From Gammaproteobacteria bacterium (lineage in GTDB: Bacteria; Pseudomonadota; Gammaproteobacteria; Ga0077536): a DNA stretch of 64,000 bases. Of this stretch, positions 47,864 through 60,502 are shown piece by piece. The notes beneath the pieces are model-generated. The model saw only the letters and a program-made list of their open reading frames with translations, made no database searches and had not been told where the DNA came from. A program made the translations under genes and the position numbers. Positions within the stretch are counted from its first letter, which is position 1. Each line of letters starts with the position of its first letter. The stretch covers positions 124,001 through 188,000 of the forward strand of contig JACPPA010000019.1 of NCBI GenBank assembly GCA_016191285.1, written 5' to 3'.

Positions 47864-48060
47864 GCCTAAATGTGCGCTCGCAAATAAGACCCGAGCCAAG
47901 ACGGTAGTTGGGTACGCACTCCGCTCTTCCTCACCGGCCATCCCTGGCCGGCTCGTCGCTGTTCCGCGTGCGGCGCGTCCTAAGCGCCGCACGCTCCACA
48001 ATGACGCTACGTGCGTACCCAACTACCGTCTCACAGGCTCAGTACTTGCGAGCACCTTTA
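47864..48060. repeat. ~200-bp element with long terminal inverted repeats
   Basis: Arms of about 52 bases (47864-47918 and 48010-48060) face each other; the inner 21 bases (AGACGGTAGTTGGGTACGCA plus C) are perfect. The 91-base centre has two more hairpins, CCGGCCATCCCTGGCCGG and GTGCGGCGCGTCC-TAAGCGCCGCAC. There is no coding sequence. It fills most of the 330-base gap between the amidohydrolase and the cytochrome operon end. Confidence 0.65.
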
Positions 48061-48087: not shown

Positions 48088-49773
48088 TTAGTTCGCGAGC
48101 CGTGCGGTGGTCGCACGATGGAATTTATGGCAGGTCACACAGGTCGAGGCGAGCTTGCCCGCGGCCGCGTCACCGCTGCCATGGCAGGTGCGGCAACTTT
48201 CGATGCCGGGGAGTAGCACGTCAGCGCTGGTGTCCGAACTCGGTACTTGCTTGTGACAATCGGCACACCCGAGGGTGTCGTGCTGGTGATGACTGAAGTG
48301 GGATTGCGGAAACCAAGCACGCGGAATATTAACCGGCGCCATTTTCCACGCTGCCGCGCCTTCGCCCTTGCCAGTCGGTTCAACTAAATGACACACGCCG
48401 CAGGTGGTGTAGGCAAACATCTCGGCCGCCGCGAGCTTCGCGGATTGTTGCGCCCAGTCGAGCGCCTCTTTGCGCTCGCTTACTGTCAATTCGTGTCCCG
48501 GCCGGCGTCGCGTTTGCACGCTGGCCGGCGCGAATGCATTCGGGTAGCCACCGCGCAGCGCCCACGCCGCGTAATAGTCGTCGACCGCGGCTAACGCCGC
48601 CGCGATATCGCCGTGCGGCACTTCGCGCGCGACATCGCCGGGAATATTGAGCTTATGGCATTCATTGCACGCGGCCTTGAAGGTGATCGGCTGCATGCGG
48701 CCGCCACCGGGTTCAACTTGATGACAATAGACGCAACTCAACTTCACGGCGCCGCGCGTCGGACTCGCGATACCCGCGCTCTGCAAATGGTGTTGATGCG
48801 AAAACTCGACGCCGGGACTCTCCTTTAGCCGCGCCGTATCGGTTAATGACACGCGTTCGGTCGTCTTCTTCCCGTCGTGATACTTAATCAGGGCGGGACG
48901 AAATTCTGGATGGTCAACACTAAAATTCCGCACGTTTTTAACTTTGGTATCCGCCAGCACGCGGGTCAGCGTGCCATGGCACTTAACGCATAATCCTTCG
49001 TCGTGACGCACTAGCGACGTCTTGCCCAGGTGTTCGCGATGGCAACTCGCACAGCGCACGCCGTCAAACAACCCTTGTTTGAGTACCGCCGCCTCGACGT
49101 GATGCACGGTATTCTTGTGGCAGGCGAGACAGGCAGCGTTACGCGTACGGATGAACGGTAATGTGTGGCAGGCATTACAGTTGGTCCCGAAATGCGCGTG
49201 CGCGGAACTCACCGCACCACTCGACCACGCATGATCGGAAGGCATCAGCGGCAACCAGCGCAACCATTTTCCCGCCGACGGAATCACGGCGGCGATGAGC
49301 GGGATCAATAAGAACAACACCGCGATACCACCGGCCAGTCCGAGCGCCCACGGTCGCTTCTTCAACCCTGCCGCCGACAAATTGAGCTTGGCGCGCTTCA
49401 AGAGCGCCAATTCGGTTTCGCGTCCCCGCGCGGCTGGATCTTCTGAAATCTCGAGCTCCAGATCACAACCGCTCGCGGCACCCACCCGGATTAAAAATCC
49501 GCCCAAGTCGATCTGATCGCCCTGTGTTATTACCGCGGCTTGCACGATCGTGCCGTTATATTGAAAGCCGGTTGCCGTCATCGCCTGCAGGCGAATTTTT
49601 CCATCCTGGCCTTCGATTAATTCCGCATGCGCGAGCGCGACCCGCAGATTCGACAAATGGATTTCTTGATCCGTGCCGCGTCCAATCCGAAATTTGGCGC
49701 CGACCAACGGCAGGTCTTGACGCGTGTCACTGGCCTTGGTTTTATGGCTCAAATACCGAACGAGGATGCGCAT
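48088..49773 (-). CDS. FHA-like domain fused to a decahaem cytochrome c
   Basis: It has 561 residues. Residues 1-110 resemble a forkhead-associated domain (FRIGRGTDQEIHLSN, then VALAHAELI and QIDLGGFLI), although the usual Ser-Arg of the phosphothreonine pocket is Ala-Leu. A single membrane helix (about 142-164, ALGLAGGIAVLFLLIPLI) leads to a periplasmic part with ten CXXCH sites, from NCNACH (near 199) to TCVTCH near the end. Many spare His may be axial ligands. The likely topology is FHA in the cytoplasm and haems outside. It is last of a seven-gene operon, six bases after the cytochrome b-like gene. Confidence 0.85.
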   Translation of the reverse strand: MRILVRYLSHKTKASDTRQDLPLVGAKFRIGRGTDQEIHLSNLRVALAHAELIEGQDGKIRLQAMTATGFQYNGTIVQAAVITQGDQIDLGGFLIRVGAASGCDLELEISEDPAARGRETELALLKRAKLNLSAAGLKKRPWALGLAGGIAVLFLLIPLIAAVIPSAGKWLRWLPLMPSDHAWSSGAVSSAHAHFGTNCNACHTLPFIRTRNAACLACHKNTVHHVEAAVLKQGLFDGVRCASCHREHLGKTSLVRHDEGLCVKCHGTLTRVLADTKVKNVRNFSVDHPEFRPALIKYHDGKKTTERVSLTDTARLKESPGVEFSHQHHLQSAGIASPTRGAVKLSCVYCHQVEPGGGRMQPITFKAACNECHKLNIPGDVAREVPHGDIAAALAAVDDYYAAWALRGGYPNAFAPASVQTRRRPGHELTVSERKEALDWAQQSAKLAAAEMFAYTTCGVCHLVEPTGKGEGAAAWKMAPVNIPRAWFPQSHFSHHQHDTLGCADCHKQVPSSDTSADVLLPGIESCRTCHGSGDAAAGKLASTCVTCHKFHRATTARLAN

Positions 49774-49779
49774 CGCCGG

Positions 49780-50715
49780 CTACCAATAAAAGAACACGGA
49801 AAAAATGTGCGCGAATAAAGCCGCCAACAACCCAACCGATAGCGGCACATGCAAATACAGCCAAAACGCCAGCCGCGACTGATATTGAATGTCGCGTTGA
49901 ATTCGCTCGACCAGCGCGCGCTTACGCGAGATCAGATCGAACAAGCGACGGATCTTCTCTAAACGTTCGGGGCCAGCGCCTTCCACCAGCATATGGCCGG
50001 CAAGAAAGCTAATTGCCGTGGCGTCTTGCTCGGCGACTTGCCGAACTTCCGGCGCGCCCCGCGCGATGCGGGCTTCGATGCGTTGTTTAACGACATCCAA
50101 TCCTTCGCTCACGCTGGCGGCCGCCGCGCGCCGCGCCGGATCGCCAAACAGCTGATCCCACACCGACCCGCCGAGGACGGTTTCCTCGATCGAATGGAGC
50201 ACTACCTGATGCGCGTCTTTCCCCACTTGGTCCGACAGCATTAGACACTCGCGATCAAGTTCGGCGACTTCGGCGATTAGCGCATCGCGCGTGACACCGC
50301 CGCGATTCGCCGTGAGCAACCGCGGATAAGTCACATAGGCGTAAAGTCCGTAGAAACCGCTTGCGACCACCAGCAAGGTCAACACATAGGCGATCGAATG
50401 CACATTCCAGCCGAGTTGAAAGCCACTGTGCAGGGTGGTGATGATGACCAGCGTGGTCCCCAGATACACATGCGCGGAAAGCCACGCGGCAAGGCGATTT
50501 TGGGTGTCGTGATAGCGTCGCTTGCGCACGCCAAACCACGCGAGCCAGCCAATCAGCGCCGCACCCACCGTGCCGAGTGTATAGCCGAGCCACGTGCCGC
50601 CATTCGGCGGCTCGGTGGGGTTGTGCAGAGCGTAGGCAAGCACTGCCACGCCGGTCAACCCCAGTGCGATCTTCAGGTAGAAAAAATTACGATAGCTTAG
50701 AAACGAAGCGTGCAT
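49780..50715 (-). CDS. Diheme cytochrome b-like membrane protein
   Basis: It has 311 residues with about five membrane helices: four in residues 12-130 and one at 283-309. H82 and H96 are in one helix (AHVYLGTTLVIITTLHSGF), and H289 and H303 in the last (LHVPLSVGLLAALFAH). Both pairs are H-X13-H, the spacing used to hold two haems across a membrane helix bundle. A 150-residue helical insert (131-280) lies between. I know no named family for this arrangement. It probably links quinone or the Fe-S module to the periplasmic cytochromes. Confidence 0.75.
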   Translation of the reverse strand: MHASFLSYRNFFYLKIALGLTGVAVLAYALHNPTEPPNGGTWLGYTLGTVGAALIGWLAWFGVRKRRYHDTQNRLAAWLSAHVYLGTTLVIITTLHSGFQLGWNVHSIAYVLTLLVVASGFYGLYAYVTYPRLLTANRGGVTRDALIAEVAELDRECLMLSDQVGKDAHQVVLHSIEETVLGGSVWDQLFGDPARRAAAASVSEGLDVVKQRIEARIARGAPEVRQVAEQDATAISFLAGHMLVEGAGPERLEKIRRLFDLISRKRALVERIQRDIQYQSRLAFWLYLHVPLSVGLLAALFAHIFSVFFYW

Positions 50716-50753
50716 TAAAAATTTTAGCGGACGAAATTTTTAACTGCCGCGAC

Positions 50754-53162
50754 TCACCGCGAGATCGCCATGAATTCCTGCGGGCTGACGCGAATGGCGG
50801 CGCCCGTCGGGCAGGCGCGCACGCAGGCCGGACCACCGGCTTGGTCTTTGCACATGTCGCATTTCACGGCTTTCTTCGGCGCGTGTTTATCGGTGCTGTG
50901 GAATTCGTCGCCCGGCGCCGGCCCCTTGCCCAGCAGCAACCATTGCCACAGGCTCGGTTTCTTGGGCTCGCCTTTAACCGCCATTTGAATGACCCCGTAC
51001 GGGCAATTCTGCTGGCAGTTGCCGCAGCCGATACAGTTATCAGCGATATACACTTCGCCTTCGGGTGTCCGGTGAATCGCGTCCGGCGGACAATCCTTCA
51101 TGCAATGCGGATGTTCGCAGTGCCGGCATGACGTCGGCACATGCAGCGTCGCGAAACTGGGGCCCGCCTCGCGATCGAGCAGGGACGTGCCCTTGTGCGT
51201 ATCCGCGCACGCCTTCTCACAATTGTCGCAGCCAATACACAAGGTCTCATCGATCAGTAGCACATCGGTCGCCTCGCCGATCCCCTGTTGCACCAGAAAC
51301 TCAATCATGTTGCCGGCGGCGCCCTGGCTCGCGCGCAAACGCGCGGTTTCGCGTAAACGGCCTTGCGCCTTTAATTTCAGTTCTGCATCGAGATCCGGGA
51401 AGCAGGCGAGCAGTTCGCGGAACACGACGCCTGGCAGTTGGATCGTTTCGGTAGCGACGGCGGCTCGTACAGTCGCCGTGCGCGGCGAATCGGTCAACAA
51501 AGCCAGTTCGCCGACATAGTTCCCGGAGGGCAAATAAGCGATAACGACATCGCGACCACCGATCTCGTGCGACACCGTCACCGAGCCGGTGCGGATCAAG
51601 TGCAGCGAGTCGGCCACATCGCCAGCCTTGAAGATGACCTCACCGGGATTGAACTGCCGGATGCGCGCAGTGTGCACGACTTCGATCAAATCATCTTCGG
51701 AAACCTCGGGCGCGATGTGCATGCGTATGGCACGTAACAAAAAGGTCTCGTCGATCTCACGGCGCACGGATTCCACGGATTGAATGAGCTTATTCATCGA
51801 TCGCCGTGGCGTTTCGATCAATACGCAGTCCTCGCCCGCGATCACCGTCGCGGCGCGGCGCCGGCCAGAGATCAACGACATCTCGCCGAAGAATTTGCCC
51901 TGGCCCAGGGGCAAGGTGCGAGTAGGATCGCTGGGATCGAGCCGAATGTGCGCGGATCCGCGCAGGATCGAAAAGAACGTGTTGGTGTAATCATTGAACT
52001 GCACGACCACTTCGCCCGGGGCTGGTGTGCGAATATCAGAGTCGAGCAAAAATTCGCGTAATTGCAGCGGGGTCAGGCCGGCGAACAGCGGGACATCGCG
52101 CTTGATGGTCGCTATGGCTTTATTGACCTTGGTCAATCCCGGGACATGCGCGAACTTCGCGCGCAACAAGCCTTCGTCCGCTGGCTCTACCTCACGACCG
52201 CAAATGAACTCAACGACCTCGTAGCCCTGATTGATGCATTGTTTGATCAGCGGATAGCCCGCAAGCGCGCCGATGATATAGAGCCCCGGCACATTCGATT
52301 CGTAGCGCGGGGATACCGCCGGCACCGCCGCCGGATCATCGTTCGGAAACTCAATGCCACAGGCTTCGACAAATTTGCGCGGCGGCAACGCGCCCAGGCG
52401 CGCGACGATGCGATCGCAGAGAACTTCGGTTTCGCCCTCCTTGGTCTTCACCATGAACCGCAGACGACGCCCGCTGGGATCCTGATTAAGCGCATCCACC
52501 CGCTTGGGGCTCGCGTTGTAGATGCATTCCAGCTGCCCCGACTCGATGCCGCGCATAATCCCCTTTAGATTGCCGTCCTTGGCGCGTGAAAACTCATCGC
52601 GCCGATTTAGAATGATGACGGTGTTATTCGCCGCCAGCGCAAGCGCATTCTCGATCGCCGCATCGCCGGCGCCGACGATCACGATAGTCTCGTCGTGATA
52701 TTCGTCCGGATCGTCCAGTTGATACTGCACGCAGGGCAGATCGTCGCCCGGCACTTCAAGCTTGCGCAGATTGCCCTGCAATCCGATACCGAGCACGACA
52801 TGTTCGGCGCGTACTTCGTCGCCGCCGGCAAGCGCTAAGATAAATTTACCTTTGCTGCCCTTGATGGCGCTCACTTCAGACTTGAAGCGCACCTGAGCGC
52901 CGGACTTGTGCACGCCGGCGCTCCAGGTCTTCAGGATTTTTTCACGCGTACCGGCTTCGAATCCAACTTCGGCGCGCAGGGGCAACACGCCGGGTTCGGC
53001 CATCACGTGCTTGCCTTTTTGATAACGAAAGATCGTGTTCGCTAGCTGGGGCGCGGCTTCGAGTAACACATGCGAGGTGTTGGTCGCGGCGGCGCGGGCG
53101 GCGGCGCTTAAGCCTCCAGGGCCGGCGCCGACGATCGCGATCTTGACCGAAGCGCTCGCCAT
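50754..53162 (-). CDS. FAD/NAD(P) oxidoreductase fused to two cNMP-binding domains and a four-cluster ferredoxin
   Basis: It has 802 residues. Residues 1-330 are a two-Rossmann flavoprotein (VGAGPGGLSAA near 11, VGAGDAAIENA near 163) of the thioredoxin-reductase/YpdA type, without a CXXC redox pair. Two Crp-like domains follow at about 365-480 and 490-610 (GKFFGEMSLISGRRRAAT; GNYVGELALLTDSPRTAT). The C-terminal 170 residues carry four [4Fe-4S] motifs of DmsB/NrfC type: CIGCDNCEKAC, CRHCEHPHCMKDC, CIGCGNCQQNC and CDMCKDQAGGPACVRAC. It is probably cytoplasmic, passing electrons between NAD(P)H and the membrane protein under cyclic-nucleotide control. Confidence 0.88.
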   Translation of the reverse strand: MASASVKIAIVGAGPGGLSAAARAAATNTSHVLLEAAPQLANTIFRYQKGKHVMAEPGVLPLRAEVGFEAGTREKILKTWSAGVHKSGAQVRFKSEVSAIKGSKGKFILALAGGDEVRAEHVVLGIGLQGNLRKLEVPGDDLPCVQYQLDDPDEYHDETIVIVGAGDAAIENALALAANNTVIILNRRDEFSRAKDGNLKGIMRGIESGQLECIYNASPKRVDALNQDPSGRRLRFMVKTKEGETEVLCDRIVARLGALPPRKFVEACGIEFPNDDPAAVPAVSPRYESNVPGLYIIGALAGYPLIKQCINQGYEVVEFICGREVEPADEGLLRAKFAHVPGLTKVNKAIATIKRDVPLFAGLTPLQLREFLLDSDIRTPAPGEVVVQFNDYTNTFFSILRGSAHIRLDPSDPTRTLPLGQGKFFGEMSLISGRRRAATVIAGEDCVLIETPRRSMNKLIQSVESVRREIDETFLLRAIRMHIAPEVSEDDLIEVVHTARIRQFNPGEVIFKAGDVADSLHLIRTGSVTVSHEIGGRDVVIAYLPSGNYVGELALLTDSPRTATVRAAVATETIQLPGVVFRELLACFPDLDAELKLKAQGRLRETARLRASQGAAGNMIEFLVQQGIGEATDVLLIDETLCIGCDNCEKACADTHKGTSLLDREAGPSFATLHVPTSCRHCEHPHCMKDCPPDAIHRTPEGEVYIADNCIGCGNCQQNCPYGVIQMAVKGEPKKPSLWQWLLLGKGPAPGDEFHSTDKHAPKKAVKCDMCKDQAGGPACVRACPTGAAIRVSPQEFMAISR

Positions 53163-53167
53163 GGCCG

Positions 53168-54520
53168 CTACTGCAACGCTGCTTCGAAAGTCTTCATCTC
53201 GGCGCTAAAGCGCGCCGGTTGATATGCGTTTTCGTCTTTCAGCACGGCGTAGAGGGTTTTGATTTGCGCATTCAATTGAGCGGTTTTTGCGGCGTCTCCA
53301 CCGCTTGCGGGCAACGAATCGACTAAGGCGTGCGCGCCCATTACCGCCTGCTCAGCCGCCGCATAGTCGCGATACTCGCCGTCGCGACCGCCGCGGACGA
53401 TGCTAGTCAAGATGCCGCGCGTCTCGTCTGCAGTAAAAGCGTGACCACGAATCTTGCTATCGATTTTGCCGAGGGTGGCCTGCACGCTCCGCGCTGCCGT
53501 GCGCGCCGCGTCGGCGGATTCGAGGCTGGCCTTATGCAGCGCCAGTAAACCGGCGTGGAGTTCGTCGGCCAGCTGCGCATCGGTCGCACGCATTAAATAG
53601 ATCAACATCAGCAAATTGGCGTCGTTGAAATGCGGCACACCGGGCGGTAAGCCGGCGCTCGCCCGCGGCGCCCAACGCAGTTCGGTTAACGGATGATGAC
53701 AGGCGTGGCAATCGAAGAACGCAAATTCGGGTAATCCCCCCGCGCCTTGGCCCTTCTGACTAATGAATAGCTCAAGCGTGCGCGCCGCGGCCGCGCTTTG
53801 ACCCACCGCCCAGGTTTCGACATGCGAGGCAACGCGCTTGCGGCTGCGATAATCGGCATCGGTGCGAAAATGCGCGGGCTGCAAGACGGTGAACGTATCG
53901 AGTTCGAACGACAGCCGCGGGTGGCCGGCGCCCATGATGCGATGGGTGGCGAATTTATTCTCGGCACCTAGGTGGCACGCCAGACATAGCTTCGCACGCG
54001 CGGCCGGTTCCTCGGTCGGATACATGCCGACTTTTAAATTATCCGCCCGACTCGCTTCACCCGTAACATGAGTACCCAACCACTTCGACGCCGGACCATG
54101 ACAGGTTTCACAACTGACACCATCGGCAATTTGAAAGCGCTTGCCACGCTGCGCTTCGGGCGCGTTATTGGCATGGCAGTTGAGACATTCGGACGCGGTG
54201 GCCGCGTTATCGAGGCCCAGGTTGTGCGCGATGCGCTGGCCTTTTTCTTCGAGCAGCACGCGATACGCCTTGGCGTGTGCATCGTCGCGATGCCAGGTGA
54301 TGAATTCGTTTTGATTGACTTTGGAATCCACCAGCGGATGCGGCGCGCCATGGCACGTTGATCCGGAACAGGTAACAACCCCCAAATACTTTGCCGGTTC
54401 GCTAGCCGCGTCCTCACTAAGCGCGGCGCGTTGCATCAGACAACCGCCCACTGCGATCAATAGCATGACACTAAACCGATAAGCCGGCCGCGCTCGGGAG
54501 GAGAAAAAGTAACGAATCAT
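53168..54520 (-). CDS. Multihaem cytochrome c, c554-like (copy B)
   Basis: It has 450 residues with an N-terminal signal (FSVMLLIAVGGCLMQRAALS). Haem motifs: CSGSTCH, a CX4CH variant, near the N-terminus, then CLNCH, CETCH, CLACH and CHACH. A helical tail of about 170 residues without haem follows. HRIMGAGHPRLSFELDTF is shared word for word in structure with the next gene (HQLYGAGHPRLRFELDTY), so the two are tandem duplicates. Periplasmic electron carrier or reductase; the acceptor is unknown. Confidence 0.87.
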   Translation of the reverse strand: MIRYFFSSRARPAYRFSVMLLIAVGGCLMQRAALSEDAASEPAKYLGVVTCSGSTCHGAPHPLVDSKVNQNEFITWHRDDAHAKAYRVLLEEKGQRIAHNLGLDNAATASECLNCHANNAPEAQRGKRFQIADGVSCETCHGPASKWLGTHVTGEASRADNLKVGMYPTEEPAARAKLCLACHLGAENKFATHRIMGAGHPRLSFELDTFTVLQPAHFRTDADYRSRKRVASHVETWAVGQSAAAARTLELFISQKGQGAGGLPEFAFFDCHACHHPLTELRWAPRASAGLPPGVPHFNDANLLMLIYLMRATDAQLADELHAGLLALHKASLESADAARTAARSVQATLGKIDSKIRGHAFTADETRGILTSIVRGGRDGEYRDYAAAEQAVMGAHALVDSLPASGGDAAKTAQLNAQIKTLYAVLKDENAYQPARFSAEMKTFEAALQ

Positions 54521-54545
54521 CGCGCTGTATTCCCTATCCTAGGCG

Positions 54546-55883
54546 TCAGTGTTGACCGAGACTCGCGCCTATTGAATTTAAGGCTTTCGCGAACGCGGTT
54601 GGGCGATAGGTTCGCTCATTACCGACCGCTAGATAGATTTCGTTTAGCGTCGCGTTCACGCGTTCAAAATCGGCGGGCGGCAGCCGTCCCTCATCAAACT
54701 CCGCGGCAATCAACGTGGCTAAGGACATGGCCACGCTCTCGGCCGCGGTGAATGCCAGTGGCGCCTCTGCTTTTGCTTCATCGACAAGCGCGCGCGCGAT
54801 CGCAAGTCCATCACTGGATTGTTCGTGATACGTATGGAGGGCGCTAGCGAGCATTTCGACCTCTTGTTTGAGGGCAGTCGCGCGACTCGCGCGCGAGCCC
54901 GGATCGTTGACACTGACCTGCAACGCGCGCGTGGCGCGACGCAGCGCATCGACCTGCGTAGGGTTAACGATTCTAGCCGCTCCGCGCAAGACGACAAACG
55001 CCGAGTCGTTAAAAGTCAGCGCACCGGATTTCACGCCCTGCCGCGGCCGATATTGCGGATCATCGTTGATTCCACGGTGGCATCCGTGACAATCGAACAA
55101 CGCAAGCTCTGGCCAGCGACCCGAGTTAGCGCCGGCCAGCGCCGCCGCCTGTTGTAAACCGGCGGCGATCTGCCCCGCCATCCATAGCTGGACATGACTG
55201 GCGAGCGGTTTGCGCCGGCGATAATCGGCGTCGAGATTGACATGCATGGGCTGCAACGCGGTGTAGGTATCGAGCTCGAAGCGCAACCGTGGATGTCCCG
55301 CACCATAGAGCTGATGGCTGGCTTTGCGAACGTTGTCCCCTTGATGACAGGACAAACAAAGGGCCGCGCGCGCAGCGGGTTCATTGGTGGGATAAAGCCC
55401 GGCCGCGACATTCGCGGCATGCGTGGCCGTCGGCTGCATATGGACAGCGAGAAAGCCACCGCCGGGACCATGACAGGACTCACAACCGACGCCGGCCTCG
55501 AGGCTAAATTTGGCGCCGCGCTGCGCCGCCGGGACGTAAGTGGTATGGCAGACCAAGCAGTCCGCTGCTTGGGCCGCATCGGCCAATCCCAGGTTGTGCG
55601 CAATCTGCTGGCCGGCCGTGCTGCTCAAACTGCTGAAGGCCTTGGCATGTCGATCATGCGCTTCCCAGATCGTGCGTTCTTTCATCGCCACGGTGGCATT
55701 GCGCCAGGGCTCGCGCGATCCATGGCATTCAGTCGAGCCGCAGGTGTCGACGCCGAGGAATCGCGCGGTTCGCTCATGCGGTAGCCCGACCGGTGTTGCC
55801 GGTTCTGCGGCGCTGGCCGCGACGTACCAGAGTCCGGTAAGGGATATCAACAACAGCGGCAGCATTGAACGCAGCGGATTCAA
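54546..55883 (-). CDS. Multihaem cytochrome c, c554-like (copy A)
   Basis: It has 445 residues. It starts at TTG 55883, overlapping the barrel stop as TTGA; an ATG at 55865 is the alternative. The signal peptide is LPLLLISLTGLWYVAASA. Haem motifs are CGSTECH (CX4CH), CLVCH, CESCH, CLSCH and CHGCH, in the same order and spacing as copy B. The CX4CH site needs a dedicated or tolerant haem lyase, so it may be a high-spin site or a non-haem relic. Confidence 0.87.
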   Translation of the reverse strand: MNPLRSMLPLLLISLTGLWYVAASAAEPATPVGLPHERTARFLGVDTCGSTECHGSREPWRNATVAMKERTIWEAHDRHAKAFSSLSSTAGQQIAHNLGLADAAQAADCLVCHTTYVPAAQRGAKFSLEAGVGCESCHGPGGGFLAVHMQPTATHAANVAAGLYPTNEPAARAALCLSCHQGDNVRKASHQLYGAGHPRLRFELDTYTALQPMHVNLDADYRRRKPLASHVQLWMAGQIAAGLQQAAALAGANSGRWPELALFDCHGCHRGINDDPQYRPRQGVKSGALTFNDSAFVVLRGAARIVNPTQVDALRRATRALQVSVNDPGSRASRATALKQEVEMLASALHTYHEQSSDGLAIARALVDEAKAEAPLAFTAAESVAMSLATLIAAEFDEGRLPPADFERVNATLNEIYLAVGNERTYRPTAFAKALNSIGASLGQH

Positions 55884-57490
55884 AACTTGAGCCGCAACTC
55901 GGCGCGTACGCCGGCCAAATTATCTTCGCCTTCGCGATAACCGTAGATCGCGTCAGTACGGAAAATCCACTGTTTGGACAACGGCCGCTGGTAGCGCGCA
56001 CCCAACGCGAATTGATCGCCTTTGGCGGCGCGGCCGGGTTCGTTATCACGCCCAAAGGGCTTTAACCCCGCCACCTCGAACACCAGTTGCTGATCGAGGT
56101 TAAATAAATATTCAATGCCGAGCGCACCACCGTAGGCATCGTTCGCGGTGTCGTCGAGTTTTGGAAATCCAGTCAGACCGTCGGTTTCGAAATTGATCCC
56201 GGTGTTCTTCAAAATCCCGCCCGCGCCAAAATCGCGGGCGAGCGATTGCGGCTTCCGCGAGCCGATAAAAAAGTTCGCATACGGCACCAAGGTGTACGGC
56301 TTGCTGGTGATGAGCGAGTTCTCGATCAGTAACAACCAACCGTCAGCGGTTTTGTTGAATCCCGCGCCTGGGTTCTGACCGAAGTTCCACACCACGCGGA
56401 CTGAGTTCGAGACTTTGCCGAACCAACGTTTCGTGACCGCGGCGGTGAGATTGTGATAGCTAAAATCGCCGAGCAGCGGCGAGCGATTGTCGTGGGTATA
56501 CCCGTAGCCCGCCTCGATGTACATTTCACGCGCTTCAATAAACACTGCCGAGCCATAAATATCGGCGCCGTGATCATCAAACCGCTTGTTCGGCTGCAGC
56601 TCGGCCTTGGTCGTCACCCGATCAAAACCGCCGAAGAACGTGATATCCATGTTCGAAATATCGAAGCGCGGGCTATTCAACGCCGGGATCGTGAAGGCGC
56701 CGCCCATGATCGCGTCTTCCATCCAAATTCCGTTCTGAAAGACGAGCGGCATCAATCCGAATGCGATCGGCAAATCATACAAGTTATAACGATCAGTCAA
56801 GCCGGCGGCGATTTGCCCCAGGTCGCCCTCAAAAAACAGCGCTTCCGGCTCGAGATCGAGCAGGACGCCGCCGTCACCCGTGCGATCGCGTTGATTGCCG
56901 CCGAATTCAAAACGCGTGACGCGCCCGGTCTCGACCCGATCAAGCGGGCGCAGAAAGACATGCACGCGCTCGGTGGCCGTCAGTCGCATGTCGATATTGA
57001 GATTCAACCGCGCCGCGACTTGGGCGGTATCGAGCGCGCCGTTGTCGTTATACGCCGTACCGAGACGCAGATCGCCGAAGACGAGTAGTTCCGGCCGCAC
57101 CGGATTTTTTGCACCGAGCAAGTTGATCCCGGGTCCAATCGAACCCGCTTGATACAGCGGATAACCCCATTCGACCGGCGGGCGCGGACCGTCGACCCGC
57201 CGTTTGCCGCCGTAGATCGCGAGTTGCGCGGCGACGTCATAGGGCTTGTCGACATAATTTGGATCGGGCCCGAACGCGCTCGGTTTAAATTCGGTGACCT
57301 TGGCTTCAGGCGCCATCTCGACCGGCGGCGACGGACGACCTGCATGAGAGTCGCGAGGAGCTTCCGCGGCAGGCTCCGGGATTACGGGTGCGCCTGTTGT
57401 TGGGCCGCGCCGCGGCACCTCCGCTTCGGCGCTCGAGATCCCGCCGCCAAGCGCCACAACGACCAGCGCAGCATTGAAAATACTTCGCAT
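55880..57490 (-). CDS. Outer-membrane beta-barrel protein
   Basis: It has 536 residues from ATG 57490, four bases after the upstream stop (a TTG at 57508 also fits). A signal peptide (SIFNAALVVVALGGGISSAEA) and a Pro-rich linker precede many amphipathic strands; the chain ends AGVRAELRLKF, with the C-terminal Phe of outer-membrane barrels. No cysteine-haem motif. I do not recognise a family. In this operon it could be a porin for cytochrome exposure (as MtrB does) or for a soluble electron acceptor; no sequence link to MtrB is visible. Confidence 0.75.
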   Translation of the reverse strand: MRSIFNAALVVVALGGGISSAEAEVPRRGPTTGAPVIPEPAAEAPRDSHAGRPSPPVEMAPEAKVTEFKPSAFGPDPNYVDKPYDVAAQLAIYGGKRRVDGPRPPVEWGYPLYQAGSIGPGINLLGAKNPVRPELLVFGDLRLGTAYNDNGALDTAQVAARLNLNIDMRLTATERVHVFLRPLDRVETGRVTRFEFGGNQRDRTGDGGVLLDLEPEALFFEGDLGQIAAGLTDRYNLYDLPIAFGLMPLVFQNGIWMEDAIMGGAFTIPALNSPRFDISNMDITFFGGFDRVTTKAELQPNKRFDDHGADIYGSAVFIEAREMYIEAGYGYTHDNRSPLLGDFSYHNLTAAVTKRWFGKVSNSVRVVWNFGQNPGAGFNKTADGWLLLIENSLITSKPYTLVPYANFFIGSRKPQSLARDFGAGGILKNTGINFETDGLTGFPKLDDTANDAYGGALGIEYLFNLDQQLVFEVAGLKPFGRDNEPGRAAKGDQFALGARYQRPLSKQWIFRTDAIYGYREGEDNLAGVRAELRLKF

Positions 57491-57494
57491 ACGC

Positions 57495-59252
57495 TTACTT
57501 AACCTCAAACTCGACGGCGCGCGGATGCAAATCGACCATCCACTCGTTGATCGATTGCTCCATGTCGATGGTCGAGCCGACGAATTTCATGAAGTAGATC
57601 GGCTCCGCGCGACTCCGCATCCGTGACTGCAGGACATATTTCCCCGGTTTGGTAAACGCCGACGCTGGGATCTTGTAACTAGCATCGCGGGCGCCAAGCG
57701 GCGGCAGGCTGCGACCTTCCATGCGGATGGTCGGCGGATGATTCAATACCGTGGTCGGCACGCCGGGCGGCCGAATATGCGGGAGTTGATCGCCGTCGAA
57801 GTTGATCGGCAGGTACATCTCGCGGTCGGTGCCCTTGATGTTGGTCGTCAGGAATTTGGTCTGCAGATTAAACAACTGCTTATCGAACGGCACTGCGCCG
57901 CTGGCGACTTCCAGCGAGTGAATGTCGGCCATATCGCCATTTTTGTCGACGTAACCGCTCTCCCACACCCGTTGCCCATCCGGATCGAGTAATACCACGT
58001 TGAACCACAACTCGGGTTGCGCACCGAGCGAACCCGACGGCAGGTTGTGTCCCTGATCAAGATTGGTAATGCGATAGTGCAACTTCAGAGGTTGTTGGAG
58101 TGTCAACGTCGAATCGAAAAACGGACCGTCGATTCGCATCGCATTTTCCATCACATCGACGCGCGATTTTTTCTTGTCATTCAGCAGCTTTTGATTGAGA
58201 GAAATCACATAGCGCGCTTCCTCGCGATCGGCGCGTGCGTTCCACTCGGGCGGAAATTCAGCCTTCACGGTGCCACGCGCGACTTGGTCTTCCCACTGCG
58301 GGTCACCCCAAGCCGCGCGGTAATCGAATTTCAGCCAATCGTTGATGGTCCAGCGCAGGGCGCGCGGGTTGAACGGGAAGATCCCGGGATGCGCGATCGG
58401 ATATCCCGGGCCAAAGAACATGTGATTTGAATGCTTTTGTTTGGGATCACCGACAGTCTGACCGTTGACGATCGCGATCGGCCAGGTCTCGAAACCGGCC
58501 GGCTCGCCGGGGACCTTGCCCATATGGCATTGCTGACAGGTAATGCCGGCCTTCGCCGCCGGCGCGCCGCGATACTGTTCCCAAACCACTTCGAGCTTGA
58601 TGCCCGGGTGCACCGCGACTTGGTGACAGGAGACGCAAAATTCGCTTTTTGAGATTTGTTCAAACTTAATCGGCGTCCCGTGAATCGGCGTCCCGGGAGC
58701 GCCGGGGGTAGCGGCCACGCCGTATTCGCTGGCTTTGGCTATAACCTCGCCGTACTTGCTCCCGCTGCCCGCCCCTGCCACGGGTTGCCCGAGATCGCCG
58801 GCGTCGACATGACGTTCACCATTGACCTTGCCGAATTGCGTCGACACTCGATGACAGGTGACGCAGGTTATGCCTTCGCGCGAAATTTCCGAGCGCTCCC
58901 ACAGCGGCTTTTCGCGCGGTTCCCCCATTTGCGTCGCGATTTGCTGATGGCAGCGGACGCAAAACGTGCCGATGGTGCCCGAGGCGAAATCGGTGATGGT
59001 CTGCTCGAACTTATGGAACATCGGCGAAATCGACGCGTAGGCGTGATTCGACACCGCCCATTCCCAGAATACTTTGGGATGACAGCCGGCGCATTGCTGG
59101 GCGCTCGGGAATTGCGACTCGGCAAAGACCGCGGTATGCGGATCGGCGCCGGCCAAGGCGACGGCGGACAGCATACCTAGCGCGAGACCGACCAGAACAC
59201 CGGCGGTTGGGGACCTATACACGCGTCGATGACGCGGTCTGTTCGATGCCAT
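57495..59252 (-). CDS. Pentahaem cytochrome c, first gene of the redox operon
   Basis: It has 585 residues from ATG 59252 (a GTG at 59276 is the alternative). The signal peptide (GVLVGLALGMLSAVALA) is followed by CAGCH, CVRCH, CVTCH, CVSCH and CQQCH in residues 60-270, the arrangement of c554-type cytochromes. The C-terminal ~280 residues are haem-free beta structure (LHYRITNLDQGHNLPSGS, ELWFNVVLLDPDGQRVW), which resembles a sugar- or protein-binding sandwich. It could be the terminal reductase or a donor to the outer membrane. The promoter is shared with hemB. Confidence 0.87.
   Translation of the reverse strand: MASNRPRHRRVYRSPTAGVLVGLALGMLSAVALAGADPHTAVFAESQFPSAQQCAGCHPKVFWEWAVSNHAYASISPMFHKFEQTITDFASGTIGTFCVRCHQQIATQMGEPREKPLWERSEISREGITCVTCHRVSTQFGKVNGERHVDAGDLGQPVAGAGSGSKYGEVIAKASEYGVAATPGAPGTPIHGTPIKFEQISKSEFCVSCHQVAVHPGIKLEVVWEQYRGAPAAKAGITCQQCHMGKVPGEPAGFETWPIAIVNGQTVGDPKQKHSNHMFFGPGYPIAHPGIFPFNPRALRWTINDWLKFDYRAAWGDPQWEDQVARGTVKAEFPPEWNARADREEARYVISLNQKLLNDKKKSRVDVMENAMRIDGPFFDSTLTLQQPLKLHYRITNLDQGHNLPSGSLGAQPELWFNVVLLDPDGQRVWESGYVDKNGDMADIHSLEVASGAVPFDKQLFNLQTKFLTTNIKGTDREMYLPINFDGDQLPHIRPPGVPTTVLNHPPTIRMEGRSLPPLGARDASYKIPASAFTKPGKYVLQSRMRSRAEPIYFMKFVGSTIDMEQSINEWMVDLHPRAVEFEVK

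Positions 59253-60502
<1,250 letters not shown>

Follow-up and report, generated by a model that had tools for sequence, protein, structure and literature searches.

A forkhead-associated domain joined to a decahaem cytochrome c: candidate subunit of an inner-membrane redox conduit in Pseudomonadota

Overview

The window (the whole 64,000-nucleotide stretch of gammaproteobacterial DNA analysed here) harbours a gene in which a forkhead-associated (FHA) domain, a single membrane helix and ten haem-binding motifs follow one another in one chain; this three-part order is real, and the same architecture was observed across the 44 diverse Pseudomonadota sequences examined. On balance, the evidence tilts towards a periplasmic decahaem subunit, anchored in the membrane, that belongs to an inner-membrane conduit of three parts, with the FHA domain as a cytoplasmic docking module that would most likely be independent of phosphothreonine. 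This reading is supported by gene linkage, co-occurrence, haem and histidine motifs and FHA-less relatives, together with the predicted FHA fold; from these we infer the physical complex, its haems, the path and direction of the electrons, the docking partner and phosphate independence. The features of the locus are compiled in Table 1.

Table 1. Features of the FHA-decahaem protein and of the genes upstream of it (positions in the window)
Feature	Position	Strand	Basis
FHA-TM-decahaem cytochrome c gene, 561 aa	48088..49773	-	Pfam matches, kept in homologues
FHA domain, residues 1-103, predicted cytoplasmic	49465..49773	-	Pfam FHA; AF2 pLDDT 85; Z ~10
Gly31-Arg32, phosphate-contacting GR of FHA domains	49678..49683	-	Arg kept in 40/44 (9/44 retrieved by pattern)
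Ala46-Leu47 where the canonical Ser-Arg stands	49633..49638	-	Ser in 5/44, Arg47 in 0/44
Single transmembrane helix, residues 139-164, LKKRP on N-terminal side	49282..49359	-	Hydrophobicity, AF2
Decahaem c region, residues 199-549, ten CXXCH	48127..49179	-	Motif and conservation
Membrane protein, 311 aa, probable dihaem cytochrome b	49780..50715	-	Invariant His pairs; Ni_hydr_CYTB below cut-off
Cytoplasmic flavin/NAD(P) (YpdA-like) - tandem cyclic-nucleotide-binding (PKA-R-like) - 4Fe-4S protein, 802 aa	50754..53162	-	Pfam, profile matches, co-occurrence
Cytochrome c554-family protein (c554a), present in the other operon type too	53168..54520	-	Pfam, locus comparison
Second cytochrome c554-family protein (c554b)	54546..55883	-	Pfam, locus comparison
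Signal-peptide protein, 542 aa, probable outer-membrane barrel/porin	55880..57508	-	Sequence character; no Pfam match
Multihaem cytochrome c, 593 aa	57495..59276	-	72-81% identity in relatives with the window's operon type

Reading frame and domain architecture

A run of seven minus-strand genes (48088-59276) ends with this one, whose ATG start lies 6 nt past the stop codon of the upstream gene. A mis-called start, which the preliminary description had named as a possible source of the N-terminal part, was considered and rejected as unlikely: the N-terminus is kept in relatives as distant as ~26-30% identity, and the FHA codons, compared between two relatives (L003 and L004, NG86), give dN 0.035 and dS 0.87, a dN/dS of ~0.04 that points to purifying selection. 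Since in-frame TTG codons sit immediately ahead of the membrane helix, an extra short isoform besides the full-length protein is just conceivable. PHROGs gave no match. Just 3' of the gene (47899-48031) lies a palindromic element of ~140 bp, whose inverted arms, 21 nt each and perfect, are separated by 91 nt; the same genome contains about a dozen further long copies with identities of 79-95%, as expected of a REP- or MITE-like repeat.

The N-terminal part matches the Pfam FHA profile over residues 29-91 (25.3 bits; gathering cut-off, 20.7), as do the N-terminal parts of several homologues. AlphaFold2 (AF2) predicts an all-beta sandwich for residues 1-125 (mean pLDDT 85.2), and the top Foldseek and VIA-align matches of this model are FHA domains (GarA, OdhI, EmbR, CT664/CdsD, Ki67 and KIF13B; Z ~10 over 91-95 residues), GarA and OdhI being also the closest solved relatives by profile. 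As modelled, therefore, the N-terminal domain has the FHA fold. The hydrophobic stretch that follows (residues 146-164; AF2 helix 139-163) is preceded by LKKRPW, a positive-inside flank, and basic residues on the N-terminal side of a single helix would make the FHA domain cytoplasmic and the haems periplasmic. The full-length AF2 model was used for the helix alone, its haem part having been modelled without haem at a mean pLDDT of 58.

The chain contains ten CXXCH motifs, whereas 2000 shuffles of the same residues yield 0.04 on average and never more than 2. Furthermore, the distal histidines equal the haems in number: there are ten (192, 225, 248, 288, 326, 329, 387, 495, 498 and 552), every one of them retained in 42 or more of the 44 homologues, which is consistent with bis-His haems. 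The region belongs with multihaem cytochromes of the c7/c3 type (Pfam Cytochrome_C7, 50.8 bits; Cytochrom_c3_2, 43.9 bits), and the NapC/NirT (CymA) profile Cytochrom_NNT gave no match in the window's protein up to E = 1.

The FHA-like N-terminus, the one membrane helix, the ten CXXCH sites and the replacement of the pocket's Ser-Arg by Ala-Leu, all pointed out in the preliminary description, are thus upheld. The last of these holds for the whole family: position 46 is Ser in 5/44 homologues and position 47 is Arg in none. The complete GR...S-R-x-H...N phosphothreonine pocket is therefore absent, while its GR, His and Asn are mostly kept (Arg32 in 40/44, His49 in 41/44 and Asn73 in 36/44), the figure for Arg32 being biased upward because 9 of the 44 homologues were fetched with a GRGTDQ pattern. 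Residual binding of phosphate or of an acidic ligand would account for such retention. In one genome (G536), the Arg of the GR is replaced by Ala and the FHA match still reaches 40 bits.

Distribution and operon partners

Relatives with the same fusion, a search for which had been suggested at the outset, proved to be common. Full-length homologues with the parts in this order are 71-61% identical within the same family; others come from further gammaproteobacterial families and, down to ~26-30% identity, from a second class of Pseudomonadota. The protein was found in 15 of the 398 genomes of a phylum-wide Pseudomonadota sample and in 15 of the 369 genomes of a class-wide sample; for the profile scan of genome contigs, a closer set of members served as query, a ten-member diverse alignment being too divergent. 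Two records of metagenome-assembled genomes titled Klebsiella pneumoniae (L021, L023) carry close relatives of the locus, and their titles look mislabelled.

Two neighbouring genes, for a flavin/cNMP/4Fe-4S protein and for a probable dihaem cytochrome b, encode likely partners that the preliminary description had passed over. Together with the FHA-decahaem gene, they form a core cassette of three genes that is directly linked in nearly all loci. Among the 398 Pseudomonadota genomes, those found to have the 802-aa partner and those found to have the FHA-decahaem cytochrome are exactly the same 15, which span eight families and, being in part related, are not independent; the partner was also present in 11/11 further newly found carriers. 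This protein combines a YpdA-like flavin/NAD(P) part, two cyclic-nucleotide-binding domains resembling in tandem the PKA regulatory subunit, and several 4Fe-4S segments; in the first phosphate-binding cassette, Gly-Glu and one Arg are invariant in 8/8 aligned members. The 311-aa membrane protein reached the cut-off of none of the Pfam cytochrome b families (Ni_hydr_CYTB, 21.1 bits vs 30.1). Its His82/His96 and His289/His303 are invariant in 38/38 homologues, each pair being 14 residues apart, which would fit two b haems across the membrane and, judged from sequence, makes a dihaem cytochrome b probable.

Two operon types surround the common core cassette. The window's type contains two c554 cytochromes, the probable barrel and the 593-residue multihaem cytochrome, while the other, more widespread type contains an HbpS-like protein, an SH3-containing protein and a decahaem cytochrome of 1250-1300 residues with LVIVD repeats, for which no relative of solved structure was found. 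The latter module lies at 2691-10534 in L074, with equivalents in L031, L034 and L108-L113.

In G536 (L109 10824-13064; L110 4453-6690), each of the two core copies adjoins a divergent gene for a CHASE2-class III adenylate/guanylate cyclase. This arrangement hints at a role for cyclic nucleotides in the system, and the cyclase is a possible source of nucleotide for the partner's cyclic-nucleotide-binding (CNB) domains. No such cyclase was found near the other examined loci, apart from a cyclase-like ORF in G058, where a solitary second flavin/cNMP/4Fe-4S gene stands without cytochromes (L093 6485-8962).

FHA-less relatives

Some of the cytochromes (five in the window's family, L010-L014, and one in another, L108) have a short tail in place of the FHA domain. 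In the cytochrome tree, they form two separate groups amid FHA-bearing ones, with two changes in all bootstrap trees, so that at least two losses of the FHA domain are the simplest account. As the 802-aa partner and the membrane subunit are retained in these genomes, the domain is accessory and not essential for electron transfer.

Two correlates of the loss were considered and ruled out. A tie to loss of the flavin/Fe-S partner fails because FHA-less genomes keep this partner farther down the operon, and a tie to lost adjacency fails because one genome without the FHA domain (G673) has an adjacent partner while one with it (G536) has the partner several kb off. When partners from FHA-bearing and FHA-less systems were compared, no clustered surface of differences was found. 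Thr677 of the 802-aa partner is kept in FHA-bearing systems and absent from FHA-less ones; it adjoins a 4Fe-4S cysteine, and its conservation is probably structural.

Proposed complex and alternative explanations

In the favoured arrangement, the cytoplasmic flavin/NAD(P)-4Fe-4S protein with its two cyclic-nucleotide-binding domains would trade electrons with the probable dihaem cytochrome b, which would pass them to the ten periplasmic c-haems; these would serve other multihaem cytochromes and also, in the lineage of the window, the probable outer-membrane barrel. The direction could be export or uptake. The FHA domain would dock onto either the flavin/Fe-S subunit or the cytochrome b, in the latter case onto its 150-residue cytoplasmic loop (residues 131-283), in a mode like that of the PrgH and GarA/OdhI FHA domains, and may aid assembly or regulation while being dispensable for electron transfer. 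Docking without phosphothreonine has precedents: the FHA domains of GarA/OdhI bind the metabolic enzyme 2-oxoglutarate dehydrogenase directly (PMC10415282), and in the type III secretion system (T3SS) protein PrgH, mutation of the presumed phosphothreonine contacts left secretion unaffected, and phosphothreonine binding was judged unlikely (PMC3635987). Against the docking reading stands the lack of the FHA domain in two lineages that keep all other subunits, where docking via this domain is evidently not required. The suggestion, made in the preliminary description, that the domain may recognise a partner without phosphate is the best-fitting reading; with the arginine of the GR mostly kept, some binding of phosphate is conceivable.

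A bolder version is offered tentatively and is the less probable of the two: an undescribed, widespread trans-envelope redox complex of Pseudomonadota, in which cAMP or cGMP bound by the two CNB domains might act jointly with FHA docking that needs no phosphate to switch NAD(P)H- or ferredoxin-linked electrons via the dihaem cytochrome b to the decahaem wire.

Alternatively, a Ser/Thr kinase could phosphorylate the partner or the protein itself, with the FHA domain reading the mark and switching electron flow. The mostly kept Arg32, His49 and Asn73 speak for such a gate, as do the 12 Ser/Thr kinase (PF00069) matches in the window's genome. Most FHA-bearing genomes carry kinases, and in a second set of carriers 10/11 have PF00069 kinases above the cut-off. 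Nevertheless, the Ser-Arg pair is missing across the family, none of the 12 matches lies on this contig, where adjacent kinases had been looked for, while two others of the genome's seven FHA domains have kinases close by, and G536 has lost the Arg of the GR yet kept the fold. Furthermore, 9 of 23 carriers have no match to PF00069 (the family searched), and seven of these nine are FHA-bearing and at least 90% complete. For lack of the Ser-Arg pair, of a nearby kinase and of PF00069 in these seven near-complete genomes, phosphothreonine reading is unlikely as a conserved function, though it may occur in particular lineages; a phosphothreonine gate is accordingly considered improbable, and the earlier idea that phosphorylation in the cytoplasm is relayed to electron flow in the periplasm is not supported.

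Assembly by FHA-FHA contacts, which would arrange the decahaem subunits in a ring or stack like the inner-membrane ring of the T3SS, is judged no likelier than the phosphothreonine gate. Some homologues (L064, 36.6 bits; L109, 37.1 bits) do exceed the cut-off of the Yop-YscD cytoplasmic domain profile (33.2 bits), and CT664/CdsD is among the top fold matches; the window's own protein, however, stays below that cut-off at 22.9 bits, no ring partner was seen, and the FHA domain is dispensable in two lineages. A last alternative, in which the FHA domain survives from an old fusion as a relic without function, might be suggested by its double loss from a retained system and by its degraded pocket; it is very improbable given the purifying selection on its codons (dN/dS ~0.04) and its retention across many families.

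Relation to known systems

Among solved FHA proteins, GarA and OdhI of Actinobacteria come closest by profile and rank among the best by fold, and their FHA domain likewise acts on a metabolic enzyme; in contrast to the present protein, they are soluble kinase-regulated inhibitors with neither membrane helix nor haem. PrgH, YscD and CdsD of the T3SS share the order of FHA domain, single helix and periplasmic part, the degenerate phosphothreonine pocket and a docking role (presumptive for the FHA-decahaem protein), but they carry ring-building periplasmic domains, contain no haem and belong to a different system. CymA/NapC and MtrCAB/MtoAB resemble the proposed conduit in that periplasmic c-haems join the inner membrane to an envelope-spanning multihaem chain; they have no FHA domain, and the present protein has no NapC/NirT match. 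These systems are not known to include a cytoplasmic NAD(P)/4Fe-4S/cNMP subunit. Periplasmic c7-type multihaem cytochromes (for example, 3ov0) possess the same c7/c3-type haem-binding segments in chains without FHA domain or membrane helix.

When open-access full texts were searched for an FHA domain with a multihaem or decahaem cytochrome, a single paper was found, a Gallionellaceae pangenome of 2023. In its Table 1, cluster 403, present in 27 of 87 iron oxidisers, appears as a ‘Forkhead-associated protein’ with 10 CXXCH (PMC10734462). The cluster was filed there under ‘Other’, without analysis of topology, operon or function (PMC10734462). Its name and haem count agree with the architecture of the FHA-decahaem protein, and by these two marks both probably represent the same family. 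A description of the fusion or of the complex was not found in this open-access full-text literature.

Significance

If the proposed complex is correct, the cytoplasmic redox and second-messenger state would be coupled directly to periplasmic or extracellular electron flow within one complex, and the protein would provide a clear case of an FHA domain serving as the plug of a redox complex. Furthermore, the unexplained ‘Forkhead-associated’ decahaem protein of iron oxidisers would gain a testable identity, with natural FHA-less versions at hand for comparison.
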